In this document: in pieces, positions 21,859-34,524 of the stretch
Numbering within the stretch: the first letter of the stretch is position 1
Layout of the letters: every line of letters starts with the position of its first letter
Source of the DNA: Acidobacteriota bacterium
GTDB lineage: Bacteria > Acidobacteriota > Vicinamibacteria > Vicinamibacterales > CAVVIG01
DNA length: 64,000 nucleotides
Reading direction: 5' to 3'
Assembly: GCA_003222395.1 (NCBI GenBank)
Contig: QHWB01000036.1
Span: 1-64,000 of the forward strand
The notes under the pieces: model-generated
What the model saw: only the letters and a program-made list of their open reading frames with translations
Told to the model about the DNA's origin: nothing
The model's database searches: none
Made by a program: the position numbers and the translations under genes

Positions 21859-24051
21859 ATGAACCGACGCTACACGTTGCTTGTGCTGCTCGTTTGTTGC
21901 TTGCGGCCCTCTGAGGCGAATGCATCAGGGCTGGTCGTCCATAGTGTCACTGATGAAGGGACAGCAGCTACCATCTCTCGTTCCGTGTCACAGATCACCA
22001 TCGATGGAGTATTAGACGAGCCTGACTGGAAAGCAGCAGCACCGATCGGGGAGATACGGCAGCGCGAGCCGCACGAGGGCCAACGGGCAACAGAGTCTAC
22101 AGAAGTAAAGCTGCTTTATGACAGCCGGAATCTCTATGTCGGCGTGATGTGCTTTGACTCAGACCCGAAGCATATTATCGGCACACAGATGTCGCGTGAC
22201 GCTGACCTTTCGGCAGATGATCGCATAGAGATTCTCATCGACAGCCTCCGCGACCGGCGTAATGCCTTCTACTTTGCCACCAACCCGCTGGGTGCGCTCG
22301 TTGACGCGCTCGTCATCGAAAACGGCCAGATGATCAATAAAGAGTGGGATGCAATCTGGCTGGTGCGAACCCGCCGCACAGAGCACGGGTGGAGCGCCGA
22401 GTTTGCGATACCCTTCAAGAGCTTGGGCTTTCATAGAGGGCAACAGGCGTGGGGATTCAACTTCTCTCGCACCATCAAGCGCAAGCTCGAAGAGGACCGG
22501 TGGGCATCTCCACGCCTTGATCTGGCGTTCTTCCAAGTCTCAGAAGCAGGCGAGATCCCGGGCGTTGAAGACATCGAGCAAGGGAACGGATTAGATGTGC
22601 GTCCGTATGTCTCACACAAAGTGCTTCGCGATAGCAACATAGGAAACGACGCGAGCTCTCAACCCGGTGCTGACATCTTCTACAACATAACTCCGAGCTT
22701 GAAATGGACGACAACGATTAACACGGACTTTGCCGAAACTGAGGTAGACACACGCCAGATCAACCTGACGCGTTTTCCGCTGTTCTTTCCCGAAAAGCGC
22801 GCATTCTTTCTCGAGAGCGCGGGAGCGTTGAACTTTTTGAATTCGGATGAGGAGGCCGACGTCATCCCGTTTTTCAGTCGGCGGATCGGGTTGCTCGAAG
22901 GCGAGGAAGTTCCGATGCTGGCCGGGACGAAGCTGACCGGCAAAGTGAGCGGCTATGACGTTGGGCTACTCGCGGCGCATACGCGCGCAACCAACCTGGT
23001 TGAAGCGAAGAATTTTCTCGTGGCCCGCGTCAAGCGCAACATCCTGAAGCAGTCTTACGTCGGCGGCATCTTCACGAGCGGTGATCCCGCCGGCTCCGCC
23101 TTCAGCCGGACCTCTGGCGCAGACTTCAGACTCTTCAGCTCTCGCTTTCTAGGGAAGGACCAAAACTTTGGCGTCGACGGATTTCTGCTCAAGACGTGGA
23201 ACGAGGGATTAAACGGAAAGAATAATTCATTCGGCTTTGGCATTCGCTACCCGAATGATCTGTGGTATCTCATCTTGGACTGGAAGCAGATCGAAGAAAA
23301 CTTCAGACCGACGTTGGGGTTTGTGCCGCGTACGGATGTCCGGAAGCTCAGCATCTCTGCAGAATTCAACCCGAGGCCCGAAGATTTTTTCGACGTCCGG
23401 CAGATGTTCCACCTGTTCTCCTTCACACGCTTTACGAATCTTACTCATAACCAGGTTGAAAGCTGGCGGGTGTATACCTCTCCTATCAATTTCACGTTCA
23501 ACTCAGGCGACGATATTCAATTCAACTATGCCCCACAGTTCGAGCGACTATTCGAGCCATTTGAGATTGCGCAAGGAGTAACACTGCCAGTGGGCAATTA
23601 CCGCTTTACCAGGTGGGGCTTGGAGATCAGTACCGCTTCCAAGCGGCGATGGCAATTTGACAACACCTGGTCGGTCGGCCCATTCTGGTCGGGTCACGCC
23701 AGTCAGCTCGAGACTGGCTTTCAATACAAGGTAGCGCCTCATTTTCAAACAGGCATCACGCTCAAACAGACATTTGCGCGCCTCACAGAAGGGAACTTTG
23801 TCGCGAGGGTTGTCGTCCTGAGGGCTGACTACTCCGTGTCACCGCTGTTGACATTCTTCAATCTCGTCCAGTTCGACAATCAGGGGACGAGCCTCGGCTG
23901 GCAGAGCCGCGTCCGCTGGACTCTGCGGCCAGGCAATGATGTCTTCCTCGTCTTTACTCAGGGTTGGTTAGAGGATGAAGCCCGCAGCCTGAGTTTCCAC
24001 CCTACTGAAACCAAGCTCGCCGGAAAACTGCAATACACCTTCAGATTCTGA
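21859..24051 (+). CDS. CBM9-like/DUF5916 outer-membrane protein
   Basis: The 730-residue protein has a signal peptide (about 1-23), a carbohydrate-binding family 9-like domain (ITIDGVLDEPDWKAAAPIGE to about residue 215, with LYDSRNLYVGVMCFD) and a long beta-barrel region (DUF5916 type, with RFPLFFPEKRAFFLESAGAL), ending in TFRF, an outer-membrane sorting end. Such proteins are common in Acidobacteriota and Bacteroidota; they are presumed to take up or bind glycans but none is well characterised. By eye it is less GC-rich and uses more A/T-ending codons than neighbours, so recent transfer is possible. Confidence 0.88.
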   Translation: MNRRYTLLVLLVCCLRPSEANASGLVVHSVTDEGTAATISRSVSQITIDGVLDEPDWKAAAPIGEIRQREPHEGQRATESTEVKLLYDSRNLYVGVMCFDSDPKHIIGTQMSRDADLSADDRIEILIDSLRDRRNAFYFATNPLGALVDALVIENGQMINKEWDAIWLVRTRRTEHGWSAEFAIPFKSLGFHRGQQAWGFNFSRTIKRKLEEDRWASPRLDLAFFQVSEAGEIPGVEDIEQGNGLDVRPYVSHKVLRDSNIGNDASSQPGADIFYNITPSLKWTTTINTDFAETEVDTRQINLTRFPLFFPEKRAFFLESAGALNFLNSDEEADVIPFFSRRIGLLEGEEVPMLAGTKLTGKVSGYDVGLLAAHTRATNLVEAKNFLVARVKRNILKQSYVGGIFTSGDPAGSAFSRTSGADFRLFSSRFLGKDQNFGVDGFLLKTWNEGLNGKNNSFGFGIRYPNDLWYLILDWKQIEENFRPTLGFVPRTDVRKLSISAEFNPRPEDFFDVRQMFHLFSFTRFTNLTHNQVESWRVYTSPINFTFNSGDDIQFNYAPQFERLFEPFEIAQGVTLPVGNYRFTRWGLEISTASKRRWQFDNTWSVGPFWSGHASQLETGFQYKVAPHFQTGITLKQTFARLTEGNFVARVVVLRADYSVSPLLTFFNLVQFDNQGTSLGWQSRVRWTLRPGNDVFLVFTQGWLEDEARSLSFHPTETKLAGKLQYTFRF

Positions 24052-24490
24052 CGTTCCGTGCCTTCGCCGGATCGCGGGCGAGAACGGATGCGAGGAGAAG
24101 AAGCTTGACCGCTGGTTTCCAGCGGCCCAGCTGCGGTCCCACACGCAACTCTCGAATGCAAGACCTTGGTTAGACACTCTGCACGGCATAGCCAGTCGCG
24201 TGCAGTGAATCGAGGAGATAGTACGCATTGAATCATGACTCGTCATCTTAGCGTGCATGATATCGCACGAAGGCGTTGAGAGGAACGAACTCGAACGTGA
24301 TGTCTGGCGATGACTTGAAGATGACCACCGACAAGTCGCCTTCTGAACCATGACACGGCACTGGTGTTGCTCGGCCCGTCGCTCGGCACGACGGCGGCGG
24401 CGGCAAGAGGTTTCGCCAGAGGCACACTTGGCGGGCGCCGCAATGGGAGTCTGGCGGATGACACTCCAGTCGGGATGAGGCAGACATTTG
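24052..24490. other. Intergenic region before the diaminopropionate cluster
   Basis: No complete gene is seen. A minus-strand stretch ending near 24248 reads GDLSVVIFKSSPDITFEFVP then LNAFVRYHAR, with natural composition but no recognised family; it may be a fragment. Promoters for the downstream cluster probably lie here. Confidence 0.4.
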
Positions 24491-25468
24491 GTGGTGAAAC
24501 TTCTCGACCATATCCCGGTGGCGCATCTCGCCACGCGTTTGGAAACGCTCCGAAATACCCTCCGACCCACGCCGCATGTGCCGTTGGCCATGAAGGGAAT
24601 GGATCTCTTTGCCAAACTCGAGTATGTCAACCCGGTTGGAAGCATCAAGGACCGCCCCGCCTACTGGATCCTCCAGCGCGCCGCGGACAGAGGTGAGATC
24701 TGCGAAGACACGACGGTGATCGAGTCATCCTCGGGGAACTTCGCCGCCGCCCTGGCAGCCTTCACTCACCTGGTCGGCCTGCGGTTCATCCCGGTGATCG
24801 ATCCCAATATCTCCGGCGCCTACGAGTCGTTCCTCCGGCGCGTGTGTCCCGCGGTGGTGAAGGTCGAGGAGCGTGACGACACAGGCGGATTCTTGAAGAC
24901 CCGCCTGCAGAAGGTGAAGCAACTGTGTGCCACCACTCCGAACGCCTATTGGACGAACCAGTACGGAAATCCGGACGCCATGGAGGCGCACTACGAGCTC
25001 ACGGCGACTGAGATCTGCGCCGATTTCGACACGCTTGATTATGTCTTCATCGGCGTCAGCACGGCGGGAACGATCGCCGGAGTGTCCCGTCGGCTCAAGG
25101 AGCACTATCCCGACATTCGTGTCGTCGCCGTCGATACCGAAGGCTCCGCCATCTTCGGTGGGCCACCGCGCAAGCGCCATATTCCCGGCATTGGATCGAG
25201 CATCGTCCCGCCGTTGCTGTCGCATGCCAAGATTGACGATGTTGTCCTGGTATCCGAGTGCGAGACCGTTCAAGCGTGCCGCGAACTCCTCACGACGCAC
25301 GGACTGTTCGTGGGCGGCTCCAGCGGCACAATGTTCGCGGCGATCAAGCGGTATGCGGCGAGGATGCCGACGTCCAAGCACCCTACCGTGCTGTTCCTGT
25401 GCCCTGACCGCGGTACCCCCTACCTCGATACCGTGTTCGATCCCACGTGGGCAACCAGGCTCGAGTAG
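24491..25468 (+). CDS. sbnA: N-(2-amino-2-carboxyethyl)-L-glutamate synthase, SbnA type
   Basis: The 325-residue protein is a fold-II PLP enzyme of the cysteine-synthase family, of the SbnA branch: NPVGSIKDRPAYWIL carries the PLP lysine, VIESSSGNFAAALA the substrate loop, and GVSTAGTIAGV the PLP-phosphate loop. SbnA joins O-phospho-L-serine and L-glutamate, the first step to L-2,3-diaminopropionate in staphyloferrin B synthesis. The identification rests on the sequence and on SbnB being next (15-base gap). Start is GTG at 24491, with TTG 24488 and GTG 24494 as alternatives. First gene of the cluster to 34524. Confidence 0.9.
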   Translation: MVKLLDHIPVAHLATRLETLRNTLRPTPHVPLAMKGMDLFAKLEYVNPVGSIKDRPAYWILQRAADRGEICEDTTVIESSSGNFAAALAAFTHLVGLRFIPVIDPNISGAYESFLRRVCPAVVKVEERDDTGGFLKTRLQKVKQLCATTPNAYWTNQYGNPDAMEAHYELTATEICADFDTLDYVFIGVSTAGTIAGVSRRLKEHYPDIRVVAVDTEGSAIFGGPPRKRHIPGIGSSIVPPLLSHAKIDDVVLVSECETVQACRELLTTHGLFVGGSSGTMFAAIKRYAARMPTSKHPTVLFLCPDRGTPYLDTVFDPTWATRLE

Positions 25469-25483
25469 CGGAGCGTCGAAGCG

Positions 25484-26497
25484 ATGCAATTCGAGCTCTC
25501 TGTCATCAACGGCAAGACCGTATTCGACATCGTCCACGCCCATCGGGCTGAATGCATCGGGATCGTTCGCGAGGCGTATCTCGCGCACGCGGACGGACAG
25601 TCCGTCAATCCCGATAGCTACTTTCTGCGATTTCCCGGCAAGCCAGACTCCCGCATCATTGCGCTCCCGGCCTACCTCGGAAACGGCTTCGACGTGGCCG
25701 GCCTGAAGTGGATCGCCAGCTATCCTGGCAACATCCAGCGAGGTTTTCCTCGTGCCTCGGCCGTACTCGTGCTCAATAGTTACGAGACCGGGTATCCCTT
25801 TGCCATACTCGAAAGTTCGATCATCTCGGCCGCACGAACAGCGGCATCAGCGGCTCTTGCCGCGCACTGGCTGAATGGGCAATCGCACCTGGCGCATTCG
25901 CTGGGAATCGTGGGCACCGGGTTCATCGCTCGGTATGTTTACGAGTTTCTGGTCGACACGGGATGGGAGATCGAGGAGGTTCGCTTATACGACCGGTCGC
26001 CTCTCGAGAGCGAGAAGTTCAGAAACACGGCGTGCCGTCTCGAGCAGCACCGCGCGGTCACGGTTGTCCCCGACGTGGCACAACTTGTGAGGGGCTGTGA
26101 TCTGATTCTCTTCACGACCGTTGCTTCGACGCCCCACATCGCCGATGTCAGCCTGTTCGAGCACAACCCGCTGGTGCTGCATGTTTCGCTTCGCGATCTC
26201 GCTCCCGAGATACTCCTGAACTCGCAGAACGTGGTCGACGACGTCGATCACGTCATGAAGGCGAACACGTCCCCCCATCTCGCCGAGCAGAAGACGGGAA
26301 ATCGAAGCTTCGTGACGGGCACTCTTGCCGATGTCATGACCGGACGACGGTCAGTGAATCGTAGCCGTCCGATCATTTTCTCCCCCTTCGGCATGGGCGT
26401 ACTCGACCTGGCAGTCGGCAAGTGGGTGTACGACCAGGCCGTCGCCAGCGGCCAGGAGCTGCGCTTATCCGATTTCTTCTACGAGACGGCGCGATGA
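25484..26497 (+). CDS. sbnB: N-(2-amino-2-carboxyethyl)-L-glutamate dehydrogenase, SbnB type
   Basis: The 337-residue protein belongs to the ornithine cyclodeaminase/mu-crystallin family: GLKWIASYPGNIQRGFPRAS in the N-terminal domain and the NAD-binding GIVGTGFIARYVYEFL near residue 145, followed by VRLYDRSPLESEKF. SbnB oxidises the SbnA product to release L-2,3-diaminopropionate and 2-oxoglutarate. The 2-oxoglutarate could feed the hydroxylase encoded downstream, an inference. Coupled to sbnA by a 15-base gap. Confidence 0.92.
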   Translation: MQFELSVINGKTVFDIVHAHRAECIGIVREAYLAHADGQSVNPDSYFLRFPGKPDSRIIALPAYLGNGFDVAGLKWIASYPGNIQRGFPRASAVLVLNSYETGYPFAILESSIISAARTAASAALAAHWLNGQSHLAHSLGIVGTGFIARYVYEFLVDTGWEIEEVRLYDRSPLESEKFRNTACRLEQHRAVTVVPDVAQLVRGCDLILFTTVASTPHIADVSLFEHNPLVLHVSLRDLAPEILLNSQNVVDDVDHVMKANTSPHLAEQKTGNRSFVTGTLADVMTGRRSVNRSRPIIFSPFGMGVLDLAVGKWVYDQAVASGQELRLSDFFYETAR

Positions 26498-26534
26498 CCA
26501 CGTTGATTGAGGATCGATGTGGAGTGAAAGGTCA

Positions 26535-27581
26535 ATGAGAACGCTATTCGCAGGGATGGTCTTCAGTCTCATCGCCTCGTCGTCGGCTGCGCAGTGGATC
26601 CAGCTTCCGACGCCGGGAATCCCGCGCACTTCGGACGGCAAACCGAATCTGACCGCACCCGCGCCGAGGACGCGAGACGGCAAACCCGATCTATCCGGAA
26701 TGTGGGCGCGAGAGGGCGACGACCGTTACTATAACAATGCGGCCGCAGATCTGAAGCCCGCGGACGTCAAGCCGTGGGCGCAGGCGCTGTACCAGCGTCG
26801 ATTGCCCGATTTCGGTAAGGACAGCATGGAAGTTCAGTGCCTGCCGCTTGGTCCGGCGGCTGTCACGACGTCGTTCTTCGACTTCAAGTTCATCCAGACG
26901 CCCTCGGTCATCGTGATCCTTATCGAGGACCTCACGTATCGCCAGATTCACTTGGACGGCCGGCAGCTCCCCAAGGATCCGAATCCGAGTTGGATGGGAT
27001 ACTCCGTGGGACACTGGGACGGCGACACGCTGGTCGTCGAAACCAACGGTTTCACCGAGCGTTCGTGGCTCGATTACGACGGCCATCCACACACGGAAGC
27101 TCTCCACATGACCGAGCGCTACCACCGGAGCGATTTCGGTCATCTCGATGTCGAGGTCACCTTCGACGATCCTGGTGCGTATACGAGGCCGTGGACCGTG
27201 TCGGTGCCGCTGGAGCTCTTCCCCGACACAGAGCTGCTCGAAGCCGTGTGCAGGGAAAATGAGAAATCCATCGCGCACATCAGGACCGGCTCGCAGGAGG
27301 CGGCCGCGGTCAACGTGGCGCGAGCGCTGCTGTCGAAGTACGTTGGCTCATACGAGATCAGGGAGCAAGACGAGGTCACAAGCGCCGTCGTCTCGCTTTC
27401 TGGCGACACGCTGTTCCTGGATCTGGATCACACGGGACCCCGAAAGCTGGTGCCGATTTCCGACACGAGCTTTTCCGACAGCGGCAACGTGATCCAGTTC
27501 CTTCCGGACGGCCAGGGCGCGGTCACCGCTTTTCTGATCCGGACGGTCGAGTACGAACAGCGTGCCGTTCGGGTTCGGTAG
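26535..27581 (+). CDS. Secreted protein of unknown function within the NRPS cluster
   Basis: The 348-residue protein starts at ATG 26535 behind GAAAGG, with a signal peptide (FAGMVFSLIASSSAAQWIQ). Features are a repeated DGKPNL/DGKPDLSGMWAR motif, FVIQTP-like core VIVILIEDLTYRQIHLDGRQ, YSVGHWDGDTLVVETNGF and DYDGHPHTEALHMTERYHR. Proteins with this pattern are common in Acidobacteriota without a known role. The collinear position between sbnB and the carrier protein suggests it could act on the exported product, but it may be a bystander. Confidence 0.75.
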   Translation: MRTLFAGMVFSLIASSSAAQWIQLPTPGIPRTSDGKPNLTAPAPRTRDGKPDLSGMWAREGDDRYYNNAAADLKPADVKPWAQALYQRRLPDFGKDSMEVQCLPLGPAAVTTSFFDFKFIQTPSVIVILIEDLTYRQIHLDGRQLPKDPNPSWMGYSVGHWDGDTLVVETNGFTERSWLDYDGHPHTEALHMTERYHRSDFGHLDVEVTFDDPGAYTRPWTVSVPLELFPDTELLEAVCRENEKSIAHIRTGSQEAAAVNVARALLSKYVGSYEIREQDEVTSAVVSLSGDTLFLDLDHTGPRKLVPISDTSFSDSGNVIQFLPDGQGAVTAFLIRTVEYEQRAVRVR

Positions 27582-27709
27582 AGGTACGGCATCATGCGTC
27601 CGTATCGTTCAGCGCGGAGCCTCGTCGAAATGCGTGACGTCCTCGAGTTTCCTGACGATGCGTGTGCACCGATGGGATCACAGAGAGTGAAGGTCATCGT
27701 GCTCGGGCA

Positions 27710-30190
27710 ATGACTGAATCTACGATGATTGCGGATCAGTGCACTGACGCGACGACCCGCGTCGAGAGCATCTTCGCCGAGGTGCTCGCTGACGTCCTCC
27801 GCGTCGATAACGTATCAATCGATCGCCATTTCTTTGCCGAGTTGGGTGCTGACTCGTTGGTGATGGCCCATTTCTGCGCGCGCGTGAGGAAGCGGGGCGA
27901 TTTGCCGTCGGTAGCGATGAAAGATGTCTACCGCTATCCGACGATCAGACGCCTCGCAGCGGCGCTCGCGGACCGTGCGCCCGTCTCTGAGAAGCCGGCG
28001 GCTGCACGAGCGCTGGAGCTGCCGACGCCGACAAGCGCGCGCGAGTACGTCCTCTGCGGAGCGCTGCAAGCCTTGTTTTACTTCGGATATTCATACCTTG
28101 GCGTGCTGGCCGCTATCGAGGGCTACCAGTGGATGGTCGAGGGATCAGAGGGTGTCGAGAGTTACCTGCGGTTGGTCCTGTTCAGCGGCTTGGCTTTCCT
28201 CGTCGTGTGCGCCGTTCCCATCGCCGCGAAGTGGCTGATCATCGGTCGCTGGAAGCCCCAGAGCATCCGCGTCTGGAGCCTCGCCTATGTCCGCTTCTGG
28301 ATCGTCAAGACCTTGATCCGGTCGAACCCGGGCGTCTATTTGTTCGTCGGTTCGCCGCTGTACGGGTTCTTTTTGAGGGCGCTCGGCGCGAAAGTCGGGC
28401 CGCGGGTCGTGATCCTCTCGCGGCACATCCCCGTGTGCACCGATCTACTCACGATCGGCGCAGGAACAGTGATCCGTGGGAAATCGATCTTCCTCTGCTA
28501 CCGGGCACAAGCCGGCCGGATCGAGATCGGACCGGTAACCCTCGGCCAAGACGTATTTGTCGGCGAAGCGACTGTGCTCGACATCAACACGTCGATGGGG
28601 GATGAGGCGCAGCTCGGCCACGCCTCATCCCTCCAAAGTGGCCAGTCGGTGCCGGCCGGAGAGCGGTGGCATGGTTCTCCGGCACGGCGCGCGGACGTGA
28701 ACTACGTGCGAGTCGCGCCGGCCGGGTGCAGCAAGCTGCGTCGAGCCATCTATGCGGCCCTCAGCTTGATCGGCATTCTCTTTCTTTCCGCACCGCTCTT
28801 GGAGGGAGGCCTCGGTCTGCTGTTTTTCGAGGTGTCGTCTTTGATCGAGGTGCTGGACCCGAGCGTGCGATCCAGCATCGGGGCGCTGACGGTGCGGGGG
28901 CTCCTGGTCGAAGCGCTCGCCTTCTCGGCCGTGTTCATCTTCGGCGCGATGCTCGTCGGCCTCCTGGTTGTCGGCACTATTCCTCGCGTGTTGAGGGTGT
29001 TCATCAAGCCGGACACGGTCTATCCGCTGTATGGCTTCCATTACGCGGTGCACCGGGTGATCGCGCGGCTGGGCAGGCTCGAATTTTTCCCGCTTCTCTT
29101 CGGCGACAGCTCCTACATCGTCTACTTCTTGAATTGGTTCGGCTATCGCCTATCTCCCGTCGTGCAGACCGGGTCGAATTTCGGCTGCGAGGTGACGACG
29201 TCGAACCCCTTTCTCACTCGCGTCGGCAGCGGAACGATGGTCGCCGACGGGTTGAACATGATCAATGACGAGATCTCGAGCAGCTCGTTCCGAGTGTCAC
29301 AGGTGACGATCGGGCCGCACAACTTCCTGGGCAACTACGTCACCTATCCCTCTGGAGGGAGGACCGGCGACAACTGCCTGCTCGCGATAAAGGTGATGAT
29401 TCCGCTCGACGGCAGGATTCGCGAAGGGGTCGGCGTGTTGGGCTCGCCTCCCTTCGAGATTCCGCGGTCCGTTGAACGCGACAACCGATACGACCATCTC
29501 CGGAAGGGAGAGGCGCTGCGCCGCGGCCTTGCCGCAAAGAACCGGTTCAACCTTCGGACAATCGGTATTTTCCTTCTCACACGGTGGGTGGGCATCTTCC
29601 TGATCACGGTCATCGACGTGGCCGCCTTCGAATTCTTTTACGACGTGTTTGCGCACACGATCATGGCCGCACTCTTCGCGCTCAGCGTCGTCGTTGCCGC
29701 GGTCTATTACGCGTTGGTGGAGGGCTACCTCGAAGCGATCACCCCGCCGCCGCCGGCCATCTGCTCCATCTACGACTCCCGTTTCTGGTGGGTGGAGCGC
29801 ATTTGGAAGCTGCACCCGATGCACTTCCTCCACATTTTCGACGGCACGCCATTCAGGAGCGTGCTCTGGCGGCTGATCGGTGTGCGGATCGGCAGGCGAG
29901 TGTTCGACGACGGCGTCTACATCTCAGAGCCGACCCTGACTACCGTCGGGGACGAGTGTGTTTTCAATCACACAAGCATGATCCAGTGTGACTCACAGGA
30001 GGACGGCACTTACAAGTCCGGCCGAACCACGCTCGGCGCCGGCTGCACGCTCGGAGTCGGCGCATTCGTTCACTATGGCGTGACGATGGGTGACGGCTCG
30101 GTGCTCGCCGCCGACTCCTTTCTGATGAAAGGAGAGGAGGTCCCAGCACACGCGCGGTGGGGAGGGAACCCAGCGAGGGAGATGCGATGA
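27710..30190 (+). CDS. Carrier domain fused to Pls/PosA-type membrane terminal domain
   Basis: The 826-residue protein starts with a peptidyl-carrier domain (FFAELGADSLVMAHF, phosphopantetheine Ser about 49). The rest is the terminal domain of epsilon-poly-lysine synthetase-type NRPSs: six membrane segments in three pairs (about 120-180, 355-435, 610-680) alternating with three hexapeptide-repeat-like soluble domains (ending PAGERWHGSPARR, then GGRTGDNCLLAIKVMIPLDG, then HYGVTMGDGSVLAADSF and WGGNPAREM). In Pls these condense free amino acids onto a growing isopeptide chain. Here no adenylation domain is in the same chain. The next gene overlaps its stop by four bases. Confidence 0.88.
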   Translation: MTESTMIADQCTDATTRVESIFAEVLADVLRVDNVSIDRHFFAELGADSLVMAHFCARVRKRGDLPSVAMKDVYRYPTIRRLAAALADRAPVSEKPAAARALELPTPTSAREYVLCGALQALFYFGYSYLGVLAAIEGYQWMVEGSEGVESYLRLVLFSGLAFLVVCAVPIAAKWLIIGRWKPQSIRVWSLAYVRFWIVKTLIRSNPGVYLFVGSPLYGFFLRALGAKVGPRVVILSRHIPVCTDLLTIGAGTVIRGKSIFLCYRAQAGRIEIGPVTLGQDVFVGEATVLDINTSMGDEAQLGHASSLQSGQSVPAGERWHGSPARRADVNYVRVAPAGCSKLRRAIYAALSLIGILFLSAPLLEGGLGLLFFEVSSLIEVLDPSVRSSIGALTVRGLLVEALAFSAVFIFGAMLVGLLVVGTIPRVLRVFIKPDTVYPLYGFHYAVHRVIARLGRLEFFPLLFGDSSYIVYFLNWFGYRLSPVVQTGSNFGCEVTTSNPFLTRVGSGTMVADGLNMINDEISSSSFRVSQVTIGPHNFLGNYVTYPSGGRTGDNCLLAIKVMIPLDGRIREGVGVLGSPPFEIPRSVERDNRYDHLRKGEALRRGLAAKNRFNLRTIGIFLLTRWVGIFLITVIDVAAFEFFYDVFAHTIMAALFALSVVVAAVYYALVEGYLEAITPPPPAICSIYDSRFWWVERIWKLHPMHFLHIFDGTPFRSVLWRLIGVRIGRRVFDDGVYISEPTLTTVGDECVFNHTSMIQCDSQEDGTYKSGRTTLGAGCTLGVGAFVHYGVTMGDGSVLAADSFLMKGEEVPAHARWGGNPAREMR

Positions 30191-32736
30191 GCAGTATCAG
30201 CTCGCGTGACACGGTGGAGCAGAGCCGGAAATTCTGGCGCCGTGCGCTTCTCGCCGGTGCATTCACCGCACTCCCGCGGTGGACCTGTCAGCCGATGGCC
30301 GGCGTCAGCGAATACCAAGCGAGAATCTCCGACGAACTCGTCGCGACGTTGCGCGGGCTGGCAGATGATCTATCCGTGCCGCTCAGCTCCGTATGGCTGA
30401 CCGCGCACGCCAAAGTGCTGAGTGCACTGTCGGGCGAGCGCGATGTCTCAATCGGCTATGCCGCGGTGGAGGACCGTTCACCGTTGCTCTGCCGGTTGAC
30501 GACCAAGCCGCACTCCTGGCGGACGATGCTGCTGGAAACGCACCGAGCCGTGCTCGAACTGCTCTCGCACGCGGACTTTCCAGTCGACGATCTGACGCGT
30601 GAGCTGGGCCTGACGAAACCGTTGTTCGAAACCGTGTTCGATCCGACGGGTGACGAACGCGGATACGCGCGGATGAGAGGCGGGGCGCTCGCCGAGGGAA
30701 TCGTTCTATGGGTTGATGTCCTGTGTCAGGACAGGCTCACGCTGCGGCTGCGGCCGAGTACGGACGCGATCCATCGGGACTGCGCCGCCAGGATCGCCGG
30801 CTACTACCTCACTGCGCTTGAGCTGATCGCCAGCAATCCGGATGCTGAGCATCAGCGGCAAAGCCTGCTGTCCCGCGGCGAGCGACATTTTCAGCTTCAT
30901 GATCTTGCTGGACCGCGGAAGAAGCTGCCAGACCGCAGAGTCCACGAGCTGTTCGAGGAGCAGGTTCGCGCACATCCGGATGCCATCGCGGCCGTGCACG
31001 GAGACACGGCGTGGACCTACGAGGAGCTCAACGGCCGCGCCAATCAGGTGGCACGGGCGCTCTTGGCGCGCGGGCTCGGCCGCGAAGGCATCGTGGCCGT
31101 CGTGACCGAGCGCAACCTGGATTGGATGGCCGCGGTGCTCGCGATCTTCAAGGCCGGCGGCGCATACCTCCCGATCGAACCGCACTTCCCCGCCGATCGC
31201 ATCGCGACGACGCTCTCCCGGGCCGGTTGCCGTCTCATTCTTACCGAACGCGGCAGCACGGCGACGCTCGAACGCGCCCTCGATTCCCTGTCCGGAGTCC
31301 AGACTCTCTTCATCGACGCGGCCTGCGCGGACGGTCACGCCGACAGCGATCTGGACCTAGCCGTCGCGTCCGACCAGCTCGCGTACATCTACTTCACCTC
31401 TGGATCCACCGGCGAACCCAAGGGGGCGATGTGCGAGCACGCGGGCATGCTCAACCACATGTGCGCGAAGATCGTGGACCTGGAGATCGGCAAGGGGACC
31501 GTCGTGGCCCAGACGGCGCCCCAATGCTTCGATATCTCGCTGTGGCAGCTGGCCTCCGCGCTGCTGGTCGGCGGGCGCACACTCGTGATCGAGCAAGAGG
31601 CCATCCTGGACGCCGAGCGTTTCGTCGGCAAGCTCGTTGATGGCAGGGTCAACGTCGTTCAGGTCGTGCCGTCCTATCTCGAGATCGTGCTGTCCCATCT
31701 GGCGCAGTATCCCCGCGAGCTGCCGGACCTCAGGTGCGTGTTGGTCACCGGCGAGGCGCTGAAGAAAGGCCTCGCCGAGCGCTGGTTCGCAGCGCAGCCC
31801 GCAATCAAGCTGGTCAACGCGTACGGGCTGACCGAGACCTCCGACGACACCAACCACGAGGTCATGCGCATCGTGCCCCAGCGTGAGCGCGTTCCACTTG
31901 GTCGTCCCATCCACAACGTGCACGTCTACATCGTCGACGAGCATCTGTCATTGGTGCCGATCGGCGCGCCGGGGGAGATCGTCTTCTCCGGCGTCTGTGT
32001 CGGCCGCGGGTACGTCAACGATCCCGAGCGCACGCGCCGAGCCTTCATGGCCGACCCGCACCGCCCGGGCCACCGGATGTACCGGAGTGGCGACTACGGC
32101 CGCTGGCTGCCTGAGGGCAAGCTGGAATTCCTCGGCCGCCGGGACAGCCAAGTCAAGATCAGTGGCTTTCGAATCGAGATCGGGGAAGTCGAGAACGCGT
32201 TGCTGCGCGTGCCTGGTGTCCGCGACGGCGTCGTCGTGGTCGCCGAGCGGGACGACCGCAGCAGGCGCCTCGTGGCCTTCTACTCCGGCGAGCAGCGTCT
32301 CGATGCCGACGCACTGCGCGACGAGCTCGGTCGCTTCCTGCCCGAATACATGGTTCCGTCGGGTTTCCATTGGCGGCCCCGGCTGCCGTTGACGGGCAAT
32401 GGCAAGATCGACAGAAAGGCCTTGACGGCGCTCGCCGGAGAACTAGATGTCGCCGAACACGACCCCGACAGACCGACCACGGCGACCGAGCACAAGTTGG
32501 CGGCTGCATGGGCAGAGGTGCTCGGCATCCCGAAGGAGCAGATCGGCCGACGGGATCACTTCTTCGACCTGGGCGGCACGTCGCTGTCGGCACTGAAGCT
32601 GGCGATTGCCCTGGACCGTGCCGTGTCGTTCAAGGACCTCACTGATCACCCGATTCTCGCCGATCTGGCCGCGCTGATCGATGACACGTTCGCGAATCGG
32701 CTCCGAGCGGCGCCAGAACTGTTGCCTGCATCTTGA
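30187..32736 (+). CDS. Stand-alone NRPS: half-condensation, adenylation, carrier
   Basis: The 849-residue protein has: residues 1-235 like the C-terminal half of a condensation domain, without the HHxxxDG motif; an adenylation domain (about 250-745) with YIYFTSGSTGEPKG, NAYGLTETSDDTNHE, YRSGDYGRWLPEGKLEFLGR, SQVKISGFRIEIGEVE and LPLTGNGKIDRKAL (the Lys); and a carrier (HFFDLGGTSLSALKLA). There is no thioesterase. Aligning by eye to the GrsA pocket gives roughly D-I-W-Q-L-T-A-D-D-K; the two acidic residues could suit a basic side chain, but this is a guess. Probably activates diaminopropionate or a partner amino acid. Confidence 0.9.
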   Translation: MSSISSRDTVEQSRKFWRRALLAGAFTALPRWTCQPMAGVSEYQARISDELVATLRGLADDLSVPLSSVWLTAHAKVLSALSGERDVSIGYAAVEDRSPLLCRLTTKPHSWRTMLLETHRAVLELLSHADFPVDDLTRELGLTKPLFETVFDPTGDERGYARMRGGALAEGIVLWVDVLCQDRLTLRLRPSTDAIHRDCAARIAGYYLTALELIASNPDAEHQRQSLLSRGERHFQLHDLAGPRKKLPDRRVHELFEEQVRAHPDAIAAVHGDTAWTYEELNGRANQVARALLARGLGREGIVAVVTERNLDWMAAVLAIFKAGGAYLPIEPHFPADRIATTLSRAGCRLILTERGSTATLERALDSLSGVQTLFIDAACADGHADSDLDLAVASDQLAYIYFTSGSTGEPKGAMCEHAGMLNHMCAKIVDLEIGKGTVVAQTAPQCFDISLWQLASALLVGGRTLVIEQEAILDAERFVGKLVDGRVNVVQVVPSYLEIVLSHLAQYPRELPDLRCVLVTGEALKKGLAERWFAAQPAIKLVNAYGLTETSDDTNHEVMRIVPQRERVPLGRPIHNVHVYIVDEHLSLVPIGAPGEIVFSGVCVGRGYVNDPERTRRAFMADPHRPGHRMYRSGDYGRWLPEGKLEFLGRRDSQVKISGFRIEIGEVENALLRVPGVRDGVVVVAERDDRSRRLVAFYSGEQRLDADALRDELGRFLPEYMVPSGFHWRPRLPLTGNGKIDRKALTALAGELDVAEHDPDRPTTATEHKLAAAWAEVLGIPKEQIGRRDHFFDLGGTSLSALKLAIALDRAVSFKDLTDHPILADLAALIDDTFANRLRAAPELLPAS

Positions 32737-32761
32737 GCAACAGCGAAAGAAAGGAATCGAG

Positions 32762-33763
32762 ATGGCGTCCTCATTCCCGACCTCACTGCTCAACGTCGAC
32801 GTGCGACCCGAAAGGCCGCCACTGCTGCGCGTCGACGCGGCGGACGATGCGGCGCGCTGGGCGGCCGAGCACCGCGACGCGCTGCGTGCCGCTGTCGTCG
32901 AGCACGGTTCGCTTCTCGTTCGCGGTCTCAGGTTGGGCGACGTGGCCGACATTGAAGCCGTCTTTCGGCGGCTGGGCAGTCTGATGACCGAGAAGGAGGC
33001 GTTCGCAGCTCGGCAAAGCTATGCCCACGGCGTGTACTCGTCGTCGAAGTGGCCACCCAACCAGCCGATGTGCATGCATCACGAGCTCAGCTACGCGCAT
33101 GAGTTCCCCGGCCTCATGCTGTTCGCGTGCCTCGTTGCGCCGACAGAGGGCGGCGCGACCCCCGTGGCCGACTCGCTGACGGTCCTTCGCGCGCTGCCCG
33201 TGGAGTTGATCGAACGCTTTGAGCGAGTGGGCTGGCTGCTCATCCGCAACTACAACAACGAAGTCGGGGCATCGATCGCTGACGCATTCGGCACCGACGA
33301 TCGTCGCGCCGTCGAGAGTTACTGCCGTGCGAACGCGATCGCGCTCGAGTGGCAGCCCGACGGTGCGCTGCGCACGTGGCAGCGCCGCAACGCTGTCGTA
33401 CATCACCCGGGGACCGGCCAGCGGTGCTGGTTCAACCAAATCGCATTCCTCAACGAGTGGACGATCGACCCGGAGGTGCGCGAGTACCTCGTGGACATCT
33501 ACGGCGAGGACGGGCTGCCGTTCAATACGCGCTTCGGGAACGGCGACGCGATCGGCGCGGACGTCGTGCAGTTGATCAACGAAGCGTACGAGGCAAACAC
33601 TGCACGCGAGCGGTGGCAGGCTGGGGACCTGATGCTCGTGGACAACATCCGCACCGCGCATGGGAGGGAGCGCTTCGAGGGACCGCGCGAAGTGCTCGTC
33701 GCGATGGCCGATGCCGTGCACCTGGCCGACTGCTCGCCGACGATCGAGCGGACCGCCAGCTGA
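32762..33763 (+). CDS. TauD/SyrP-like Fe(II)/2-oxoglutarate dioxygenase
   Basis: The 333-residue protein begins at ATG 32762 behind AAAGGAA. Iron ligands are H106 and E108 in PMCMHHELSYAHEF (an HxE motif as in SyrP, AsnO, VioC and clavaminate synthase, rather than HxD of TauD) and H300 in DNIRTAHGRERFEGPRE, with R309 for 2-oxoglutarate. Family members beta-hydroxylate free or carrier-bound amino acids in nonribosomal pathways. Position directly after the NRPS suggests hydroxylation of its substrate. Confidence 0.9.
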   Translation: MASSFPTSLLNVDVRPERPPLLRVDAADDAARWAAEHRDALRAAVVEHGSLLVRGLRLGDVADIEAVFRRLGSLMTEKEAFAARQSYAHGVYSSSKWPPNQPMCMHHELSYAHEFPGLMLFACLVAPTEGGATPVADSLTVLRALPVELIERFERVGWLLIRNYNNEVGASIADAFGTDDRRAVESYCRANAIALEWQPDGALRTWQRRNAVVHHPGTGQRCWFNQIAFLNEWTIDPEVREYLVDIYGEDGLPFNTRFGNGDAIGADVVQLINEAYEANTARERWQAGDLMLVDNIRTAHGRERFEGPREVLVAMADAVHLADCSPTIERTAS

Positions 33764-33771
33764 CGACCGCG

Positions 33772-34524
33772 ATGTCTCTTACCCCGTTGCTACCGAGCTC
33801 CTTTCAACTGGCGTCCGACGAAGTTCATACCTGGTGCGCCAGTCTAGACGTTCCGCCTGGAACAACCGCTCGCCTCCACGCGACCCTCACGCCTGACGAA
33901 CGTAACCGGTGTGCACGCTTTCACATCGAGCGCGATCGCCGGCGTTTCATCGTCGCGCATGGAGTGCTGCGTGACCTCCTAGGGCGTTATCTTCAGACCC
34001 AACCTGACCGAATTAGCTTCGTTTACAACGCATTCGACAAACCTGACCTTAGTCCTGAATTCGGAACCCGGCTCAAATTTAATCTCTCTCACTCAGGCGG
34101 TCTCGCCCTGATCGCCATCGCCACTGCTTCCGATGTCGGTGTCGATGTCGAATACATCCGGCCCCAATCTGATTACGCGGATATCGCGCGACATTTCTTC
34201 TCAGCAGCTGAATGTGACTATTTGATTGCTGTCCCGAGCCATCTGTACCCGGAAGCGTTTTTAAGTTGTTGGACAAAGAAGGAAGCATACGTTAAAGCGT
34301 GTGGCGAGGGTCTCGCGATACCGTTGAATAGTTTTTCTGTCCCGCTGATAACCGATGCTGCGCACACTCCTGTAGATGTTCATGTTGCCTCAAACGATAT
34401 CGTCTCAGCCAAGCGTTGTTCGCTCTATACGCTCCGACCTGCTCCGGGCTACGCGGGAGCACTGGCAATCGAGGGAAGTGGCTGGCGGTTAAGCCATTGG
34501 CAATGGAAGATGCCTCGAGGGTAA
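33772..34524 (+). CDS. Sfp-type 4'-phosphopantetheinyl transferase
   Basis: The 250-residue protein has RFHIERDRRRFIVAHGVLRD, FNLSHSGGLALIAIA, the Mg-binding GVDVEYIRP and CWTKKEAYVKACGEGL, all hallmarks of Sfp-type enzymes, which attach phosphopantetheine from CoA to carrier-domain serines. It starts eight bases after the dioxygenase stop, so it is the last gene of the cluster, and would activate the two carrier domains. Its codon use appears somewhat less GC-rich than the NRPS genes. Confidence 0.93.
   Translation: MSLTPLLPSSFQLASDEVHTWCASLDVPPGTTARLHATLTPDERNRCARFHIERDRRRFIVAHGVLRDLLGRYLQTQPDRISFVYNAFDKPDLSPEFGTRLKFNLSHSGGLALIAIATASDVGVDVEYIRPQSDYADIARHFFSAAECDYLIAVPSHLYPEAFLSCWTKKEAYVKACGEGLAIPLNSFSVPLITDAAHTPVDVHVASNDIVSAKRCSLYTLRPAPGYAGALAIEGSGWRLSHWQWKMPRG

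Follow-up and report, generated by a model that had tools for sequence, protein, structure and literature searches.

A conserved split layout of a Pls/PosA-type terminal domain and a diaminopropionate-type adenylation protein, probably a two-protein relative of poly(diaminopropionate) synthetase

In synthetases such as Pls (epsilon-poly-lysine) and PosA (poly-ornithine), an adenylation (A) domain, a carrier (T) domain and a terminal domain (TD) of the TIGR02353 family are joined in a single chain, and the PosA model shows six helices and three left-handed beta-helices (PMC10522769; papers cited by PMC number are represented throughout by passages of their text). Poly(diaminopropionate) (PDAP) synthetase from Streptomyces albulus PD-1 likewise combines a carrier with a TD and draws on L-2,3-diaminopropionate (Dap) from SbnA/SbnB-like enzymes (PMC4668381), and similar architectures appear in the passages of another study only as single-chain synthetases (PMC8117764). 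Here, we describe an operon in a 64,000-nucleotide stretch of an Acidobacteriota bacterium (assembly GCA_003222395.1, contig QHWB01000036.1, positions 1 to 64,000; hereafter the window) in which a TD of this family and the A domain are encoded by two separate genes. Since the family network built around PosA kept proteins of 1100–1800 aa (PMC10522769), the 842-aa split TD protein of the window falls outside it.

The operon is intact, lies entirely on the plus strand and runs in the order SbnA, SbnB, a DUF3471-like protein, a membrane protein consisting of a carrier and a TD (T-TD), a half-condensation, adenylation and carrier protein (A-T protein), a TauD/TfdA-family dioxygenase (TauD) and a phosphopantetheinyl transferase (Table 1). 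A first-pass annotation of this DNA had proposed that SbnA and SbnB supply Dap, that a Pls/PosA-type TD sits with a carrier on a membrane protein while adenylation is on a separate protein, and that the cluster has its own Sfp enzyme; we found all of these parts, with both curated equivalog models of the Sbn pair (TIGR03945 and TIGR03944) above their cut-offs and a transferase of the Sfp/HetI type closing the operon. TIGR02353 covers model positions 1–695 of 695 in T-TD (696 bits against a cut-off of 423), and Pfam detects no AMP-binding domain in this protein, which therefore does not have the A, T and TD in one chain that mark the Pls, PosA and PDAP-type synthetases. It is the sole TIGR02353 match above cut-off in the 7.7-Mb genome (where the window is G000:C106). 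The A-T protein (AMP-binding at 266 bits in Pfam) has a second carrier of its own besides that of T-TD; the carrier serines are conserved on both, and Ser65 of T-TD is kept in all 20 split sequences compared.

The observation is thus confirmed, and the earlier interpretation is partly supported: the layout is split, as proposed, and it is not a simple cut of Pls, since the A domain belongs to another lineage and comes with its own carrier and half a condensation (C) domain. The Sbn pair, the A-T protein, the A-less membrane T-TD, TauD and the transferase share one operon, and we consider it rather probable that they form a two-protein relative of PDAP synthetase. Our search of the open-access literature, which leaves out most subscription papers, found no account of a TD whose A domain sits on a different protein; this agrees with the earlier claim that the layout has no described precedent, and 'undescribed' is meant provisionally.

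The split separates activation from polymerisation, and the pair has been kept together over several phyla. A genome from another family of the same order (G094) has the same operon, spanning a contig break, with identities to the window of 85% (SbnA), 88% (SbnB), 80% and 79% (T-TD, in two pieces), 74% (A-T), 76% (TauD) and 67% (transferase). In a sample of the phylum, 17 of 396 genomes have a TD, and the 18 matches other than the window's are open frames of 1322–1710 aa, the size of fused synthetases. Scanning 84,980 species yielded 25 loci, one fused (L073) and 24 A-less, and in these named genomes an A-T gene lies directly downstream of 20 of the 24 A-less TDs. The remaining four are L070 and L071, without an A-T gene nearby, L077, which is cut by a contig end within the TD, and L057, where a weak partial A-T match lies 1.4 kb downstream before the contig ends, with A-T, TauD and transferase genes on another contig. 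Of the 20 loci with an A-T gene, 18 have TauD (the other two are at contig ends), 14 have a full-length SbnB and 14 an SbnA of at least 36% identity; transferase matches at query residues 1 to about 140, which many loci show, were disregarded as out-of-frame echoes of the TauD gene. Named hosts include Streptomyces, Kutzneria, Pseudonocardia, Ktedonosporobacter and Arthrobacter, together with soil metagenome-assembled genomes of Acidobacteria, Rokubacteria, Proteobacteria and Eisenbacteria. The flanking genes differ between clusters, which speaks against a shared exporter or regulator.

Among 246 Streptomyces genomes, 142 have a TD and 103 an A-T match at E <= 1e-180. The TD matches listed (150 rows) include 69 short ones, that is, open frames below 1150 aa, and 66 of these 69 have an A-T gene at most 1 kb downstream when compared with the best 99 of 119 A-T rows; the genomes of the remaining three hold an A-T gene elsewhere. 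The pair therefore occurs in at least 62 of the 246 sampled Streptomyces genomes, each species among them holding a gene cluster without an assigned product. We inspected 20 Streptomyces loci, two of them known orphans; the other 18 all have TauD, and 17 have SbnB and 17 SbnA, the single exception ending at a contig end. The recurrence of this gene order in other genomes and phyla takes the layout beyond chance: the system is conserved, and the split does not reflect a broken gene. Far from rare, it is common in Streptomyces.

The substrate pocket of the A-T protein, read by alignment, follows the pattern DIWQ(L/V/S)TADDK in 20 of 20 clusters, with L in the window, V in L058 and S in the other 18. 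Over the active-site stretch, the best solved match is 9n1u (138.6 bits), titled as the Dap-bound A3 domain of the sulfazecin nonribosomal peptide synthetase (NRPS), followed by 8xjz (119 bits), the last module of PvdL (titled A3; 116 bits) and the A domain of PosA (60.8 bits). The window code agrees with that of the last PvdL module in 9 of 10 letters, the final K being assumed, and PvdL follows the order Glu-D-Tyr-diaminobutyrate (Dab) (PMC12195549). Overall similarity does not carry the Dap signal: LgrA comes first by whole-chain score, and structural comparison puts 1amu (44.5) level with 9n1u (44.1). The signal thus lies in the pocket. As Dap codes are 80% identical to Dab codes (PMC12283262), the code alone leaves Dab possible; the Sbn genes argue for Dap. 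A Dap/Dab-type pocket is supported by these alignments. The window code agrees with the Pls A-domain code, DAESIGTVVK, in 2 of 10 letters and departs from the D-x-E pattern with its conserved Asp and Glu (PMC10522769); as single words, the pocket codes were not found in any open-access paper.

Ahead of the A domain lies the second half of a C domain, matched by Pfam Condensation at positions 185–278 of 456, below cut-off; the half that would bear HHxxxDG is absent. The structure model of the A-T protein (mean pLDDT 77.0) aligns to C-A structures from about C-domain residue 190–230 onward, and no HHxxxD motif was seen in this part of the relatives scanned, which distinguishes the protein from a canonical C-A-T module. 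In seven of the 18 further Streptomyces clusters (L141–L147), the A-T query is matched only from about residue 195, without the half-C part.

These features bear on the origin of the two halves. Fission of a fused Pls is ruled out by the pocket and the closest relatives, which are those of canonical Dap/Dab modules, and by an identity of only 28–38% with the A domains of the fused set examined, among them the four whose TDs lie closest. An A-domain tree of 7 A-T and 30 fused rows sets the A-T rows apart; it contains no canonical NRPS and shows separation, not parentage. In the TD tree, a quick tree without bootstrap made from 71 of 90 extracted open reading frames (ORFs; identical ones and those below 600 aa were dropped), a single branch sets off all 41 A-less rows (SH-aLRT 95; 0 of 500 shuffles as low) as a clade, which adjoins four fused rows. 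The pockets of the four read DFECLSVVTK (two), DFECLSAVTK and DFQCLSVVA-, and Phe at this place is found in PDAP and poly-Dab (PDAB) synthetases (PMC10522769). The best reading of these trees and codes is replacement rather than fission, in which the TD of a poly-Dap/Dab-type fused synthetase would have come to work with an A domain of Dap type from a different NRPS lineage.

Dap supply is a recurrent part of the system, with both Sbn models above cut-off in five of five other clusters tested (L058, L060, L062, L063 and L069). Compared with the window, L058 and L062 have an Sbn pair of just 39–44% identity beside T-TD, A-T and TauD of 65–75%, which suggests that clusters may differ in their supply genes and yet provide one and the same amino acid. 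Two Rokubacteria loci, L059 and L066, have only a C-terminal SbnB fragment before T-TD, and a second copy of the cluster in G512 (L119) has a full-length SbnB at 91%.

The hydroxylase that the first-pass annotation called SyrP-like belongs to the TauD/TfdA family, and among solved structures a clavaminate-synthase-like protein is its best relative. Its metal site (HHE and the distal His) is kept in all 16 relatives that were cut correctly, not counting the wrongly cut L072 row and with L079, L065 and L035 omitted beforehand. With this site kept, TauD likely oxidises Dap. Oxidation of C-beta, which adjoins a nitrogen, would give a hemiaminal that needs acylation of this nitrogen to be stable. 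Hydroxylation of free Dap therefore seems less likely than either desaturation or an oxidation of units already in the chain.

In the mechanism that we propose, SbnA and SbnB would make L-Dap, and the A domain would adenylate it and load both its own carrier and, in trans, the carrier of T-TD. Such loading has been measured in capreomycin biosynthesis, where the CmnA-A1 domain charges with Dap its own carrier and that of the A-less protein CmnI, which has a canonical C domain and not a TD (PMC12400406). As in the known synthetases, the TD would then join Dap units through isopeptide (beta-amide) bonds at the membrane, with TauD presumably acting either on carrier-bound Dap or on Dap units in the chain. 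The expected product would be a short Dap isopeptide with steps of 86 Da (plain), 102 Da (hydroxylated) or 84 Da (dehydro); it may be the isopeptide oligomer or hydroxylated derivative that the first-pass annotation had in mind. A Dap-only polymer needing more than one kind of bond appears in passages of the literature, and connecting it with this cluster would be a guess.

Not all A-less TDs are arranged as in the window. Among 41 such rows, 13 have two or three carrier motifs; in the Arthrobacter group, a T-TD in L070 (9875-12991) has three PP-binding stretches, confirmed by Pfam, and those of L072 and L081 have tandem carriers seen as motifs. Orphan A-less TDs occur in G513, G516, G517, G518 and G521, each of these genomes having an A-T gene elsewhere, and further ones in G744 and G756. 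A plasmid of Pseudonocardia sp. EC080619-01 (L140:7427-14972) shows a further split form, with adjoining genes for an AMP-binding protein, a T-TD, TauD and a cysteine synthase. The orphans with an A-T gene elsewhere and this plasmid are consistent with loading in trans. One could go further and suppose a distributed synthetase, in which a single soluble, Dap-activating A-T protein would supply one A-less polymerase in the membrane or several of them in the same cell, including the orphans and the tandem-carrier T-TDs, and the dioxygenase would oxidise Dap on the carrier to give an oxidised Dap isopeptide; this is a tentative proposal, which we would not yet back over its opposite. If true, the oxidised Dap isopeptide would be a class of material unreported in the literature searched. 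Apart from this proposal, the separation of the two proteins would allow the TD, whose chemistry is poorly understood, to be studied and supplied with other carriers. In Pseudonocardia xinjiangensis, whose genome has 12 TD matches, a fused A-T-TD (1543-aa frame; L067:4757-9388) lies directly upstream of a split cluster.

Several observations weigh against a two-protein relative of PDAP synthetase. At TD residue 777 (codon 29990-29992 of the window), a His that we call C3 is shared by 39 of 42 TDs, made up of 17 of the 20 split and all 22 fused rows. The three exceptions, the window, L057 and L058, carry Asp, and in G094 the residue is Glu. This His is a pattern observed across the TDs compared here, not an established criterion; if it is catalytic, the TD of the window would be changed or weakened. 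A full Sbn pair is missing from the available stretch of some clusters (some of those without Sbn genes are cut contigs; L076 has neither within 5.6 kb after TauD), and orphan T-TDs stand without an A-T gene nearby. Both the second carrier of the A-T protein and an apparent thioesterase (TE) in several actinobacteria, which is a domain in L065 and rests on length and a GxSxG motif only in L060, L067, L074 and L076, would suit a short defined peptide no less than a polymer; the thioesterase points to a defined release step. PDAP synthetase itself, compared here by description only, has A, T and TD in one chain, and the passages of its report mention no oxygenase (PMC4668381); the window differs from it in the separate A protein, the pocket, the second carrier, the half-C part and the TauD gene.

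The same enzymes could instead make one short defined compound, such as a Dap dipeptide, an amide or a small ring, with the TD joining Dap on T-TD to TauD-oxidised Dap on the A-T carrier. Two or more carriers served by a single A domain would suit such a product, as would the TE domain of L065 and the presence of TauD in 18 of the 20 named clusters and in all 18 further ones from Streptomyces, an enzyme that a plain homopolymer would not need. Yet in the characterised relatives the TD is known only to polymerise (PMC10522769, PMC4668381), and the A-T protein of the window has no TE by Pfam, like Pls and PDAP synthetase, so we judge a short compound rather unlikely, if the most serious of the alternatives. 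It is less likely still that the TD forms no peptide bond at all and that T-TD exports or transfers a carrier-bound, oxidised Dap monomer made by the A-T protein and TauD. The loss of the C3 His in the window and the A-less T-TD genes that stand alone would be explained in this way, but the His is retained in most split TDs, the other strongly conserved TD residues are kept, and the TD is as well conserved as the A-T protein.

A monobactam-like product, with a TE closing a beta-lactam on Dap, is suggested by the nearest solved active site, the A3 domain of SulM (9n1u/9n1v), which activates Dap, and by the apparent TE of some clusters. SulM, however, is a multi-module line with a monobactam-forming C-terminal TE and no TD, and its TE has a Gln-Cys-Asn nucleophile motif and is accompanied by a sulfonation step (PMC11298585), against the GHSSG and GHSAG motifs seen here; with no TE on the window protein and no sulfotransferase among the neighbours scanned, we regard such a product as very improbable. 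It is barely credible that a frameshift or an assembly break in an ordinary fused synthetase has simulated the split: nothing was found in favour of this, dozens of assemblies show the layout, complete chromosomes such as L063 among them, the split TDs form one clade and the A domain lies outside the Pls lineage. A two-protein relative of PDAP synthetase thus remains the reading that we prefer.

The structure model of T-TD has three pairs of long helices, in keeping with the six helices modelled for PosA, and is of middling confidence (mean pLDDT 67.2). A Foldseek search with the T-TD model returned nothing at E <= 0.001, the best matches (3.2e-3) being hexapeptide acyltransferases and carrier proteins.

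Table 1 Features of the operon in the window, with positions counted from its first letter.
Feature	Position	Strand	Basis	Remark
SbnA, pyridoxal-phosphate enzyme of Dap synthesis	24488-25468	+	TIGR03945, 416 bits (cut-off 350)	
SbnB, second enzyme of Dap synthesis	25484-26497	+	TIGR03944, 446 bits (cut-off 327)	
DUF3471-like protein	26517-27581	+	Pfam match below cut-off	within the operon
T-TD, membrane protein	27662-30190	+	PP-binding, TIGR02353	possible ATG at 27710
T domain of T-TD, phosphopantetheine Ser65	27776-27967	+	Pfam PP-binding, residues 39-102	
TD (polymerisation domain) of T-TD	28052-30175	+	TIGR02353, 696.6 bits	
A-T protein (half-C, A and T)	30157-32736	+	Pfam Condensation (part), AMP-binding, AMP-binding_C, PP-binding	possible ATG at 30187 overlaps the T-TD stop
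A domain, pocket code DIWQLTADDK	30952-32406	+	Pfam; code from alignment	
TauD/TfdA-family Fe(II)/2-oxoglutarate dioxygenase	32762-33763	+	PF02668, 154 bits	ORF listed as 32681-33763; possible ATG at 32762
Sfp/HetI-type phosphopantetheinyl transferase	33772-34524	+	ACPS and AASDHPPT_N; HetI model 182 bits, below cut-off	ORF as listed (33349-34524) overlong at its start; in-frame ATG at 33772, past the end of TauD

Among the other genes of the operon, the DUF3471-like protein has no match in the same operon of G094 and is probably outside the system. No MbtH gene was seen among the cluster genes scanned, and one is located elsewhere in the genome. The 'dipeptide' cluster SCO6429-6438 of S. coelicolor was dropped as a lead, as the passages on it offer too little for a comparison. 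Two orphan T-TDs lie close to metal-related genes, one on a plasmid of Streptomyces sp. CdTB01 (L136:8911-11451), near genes for a cation diffusion facilitator and CopC, and one on the FW305-BF8 plasmid, near a ZIP transporter; in other genomes the neighbours of orphan T-TDs are mixed and do not point to a metal-related role. Immediately upstream of the operon, at 22001-24000 of the window, the G+C content is 0.547, compared with 0.59–0.68 over most of the window.

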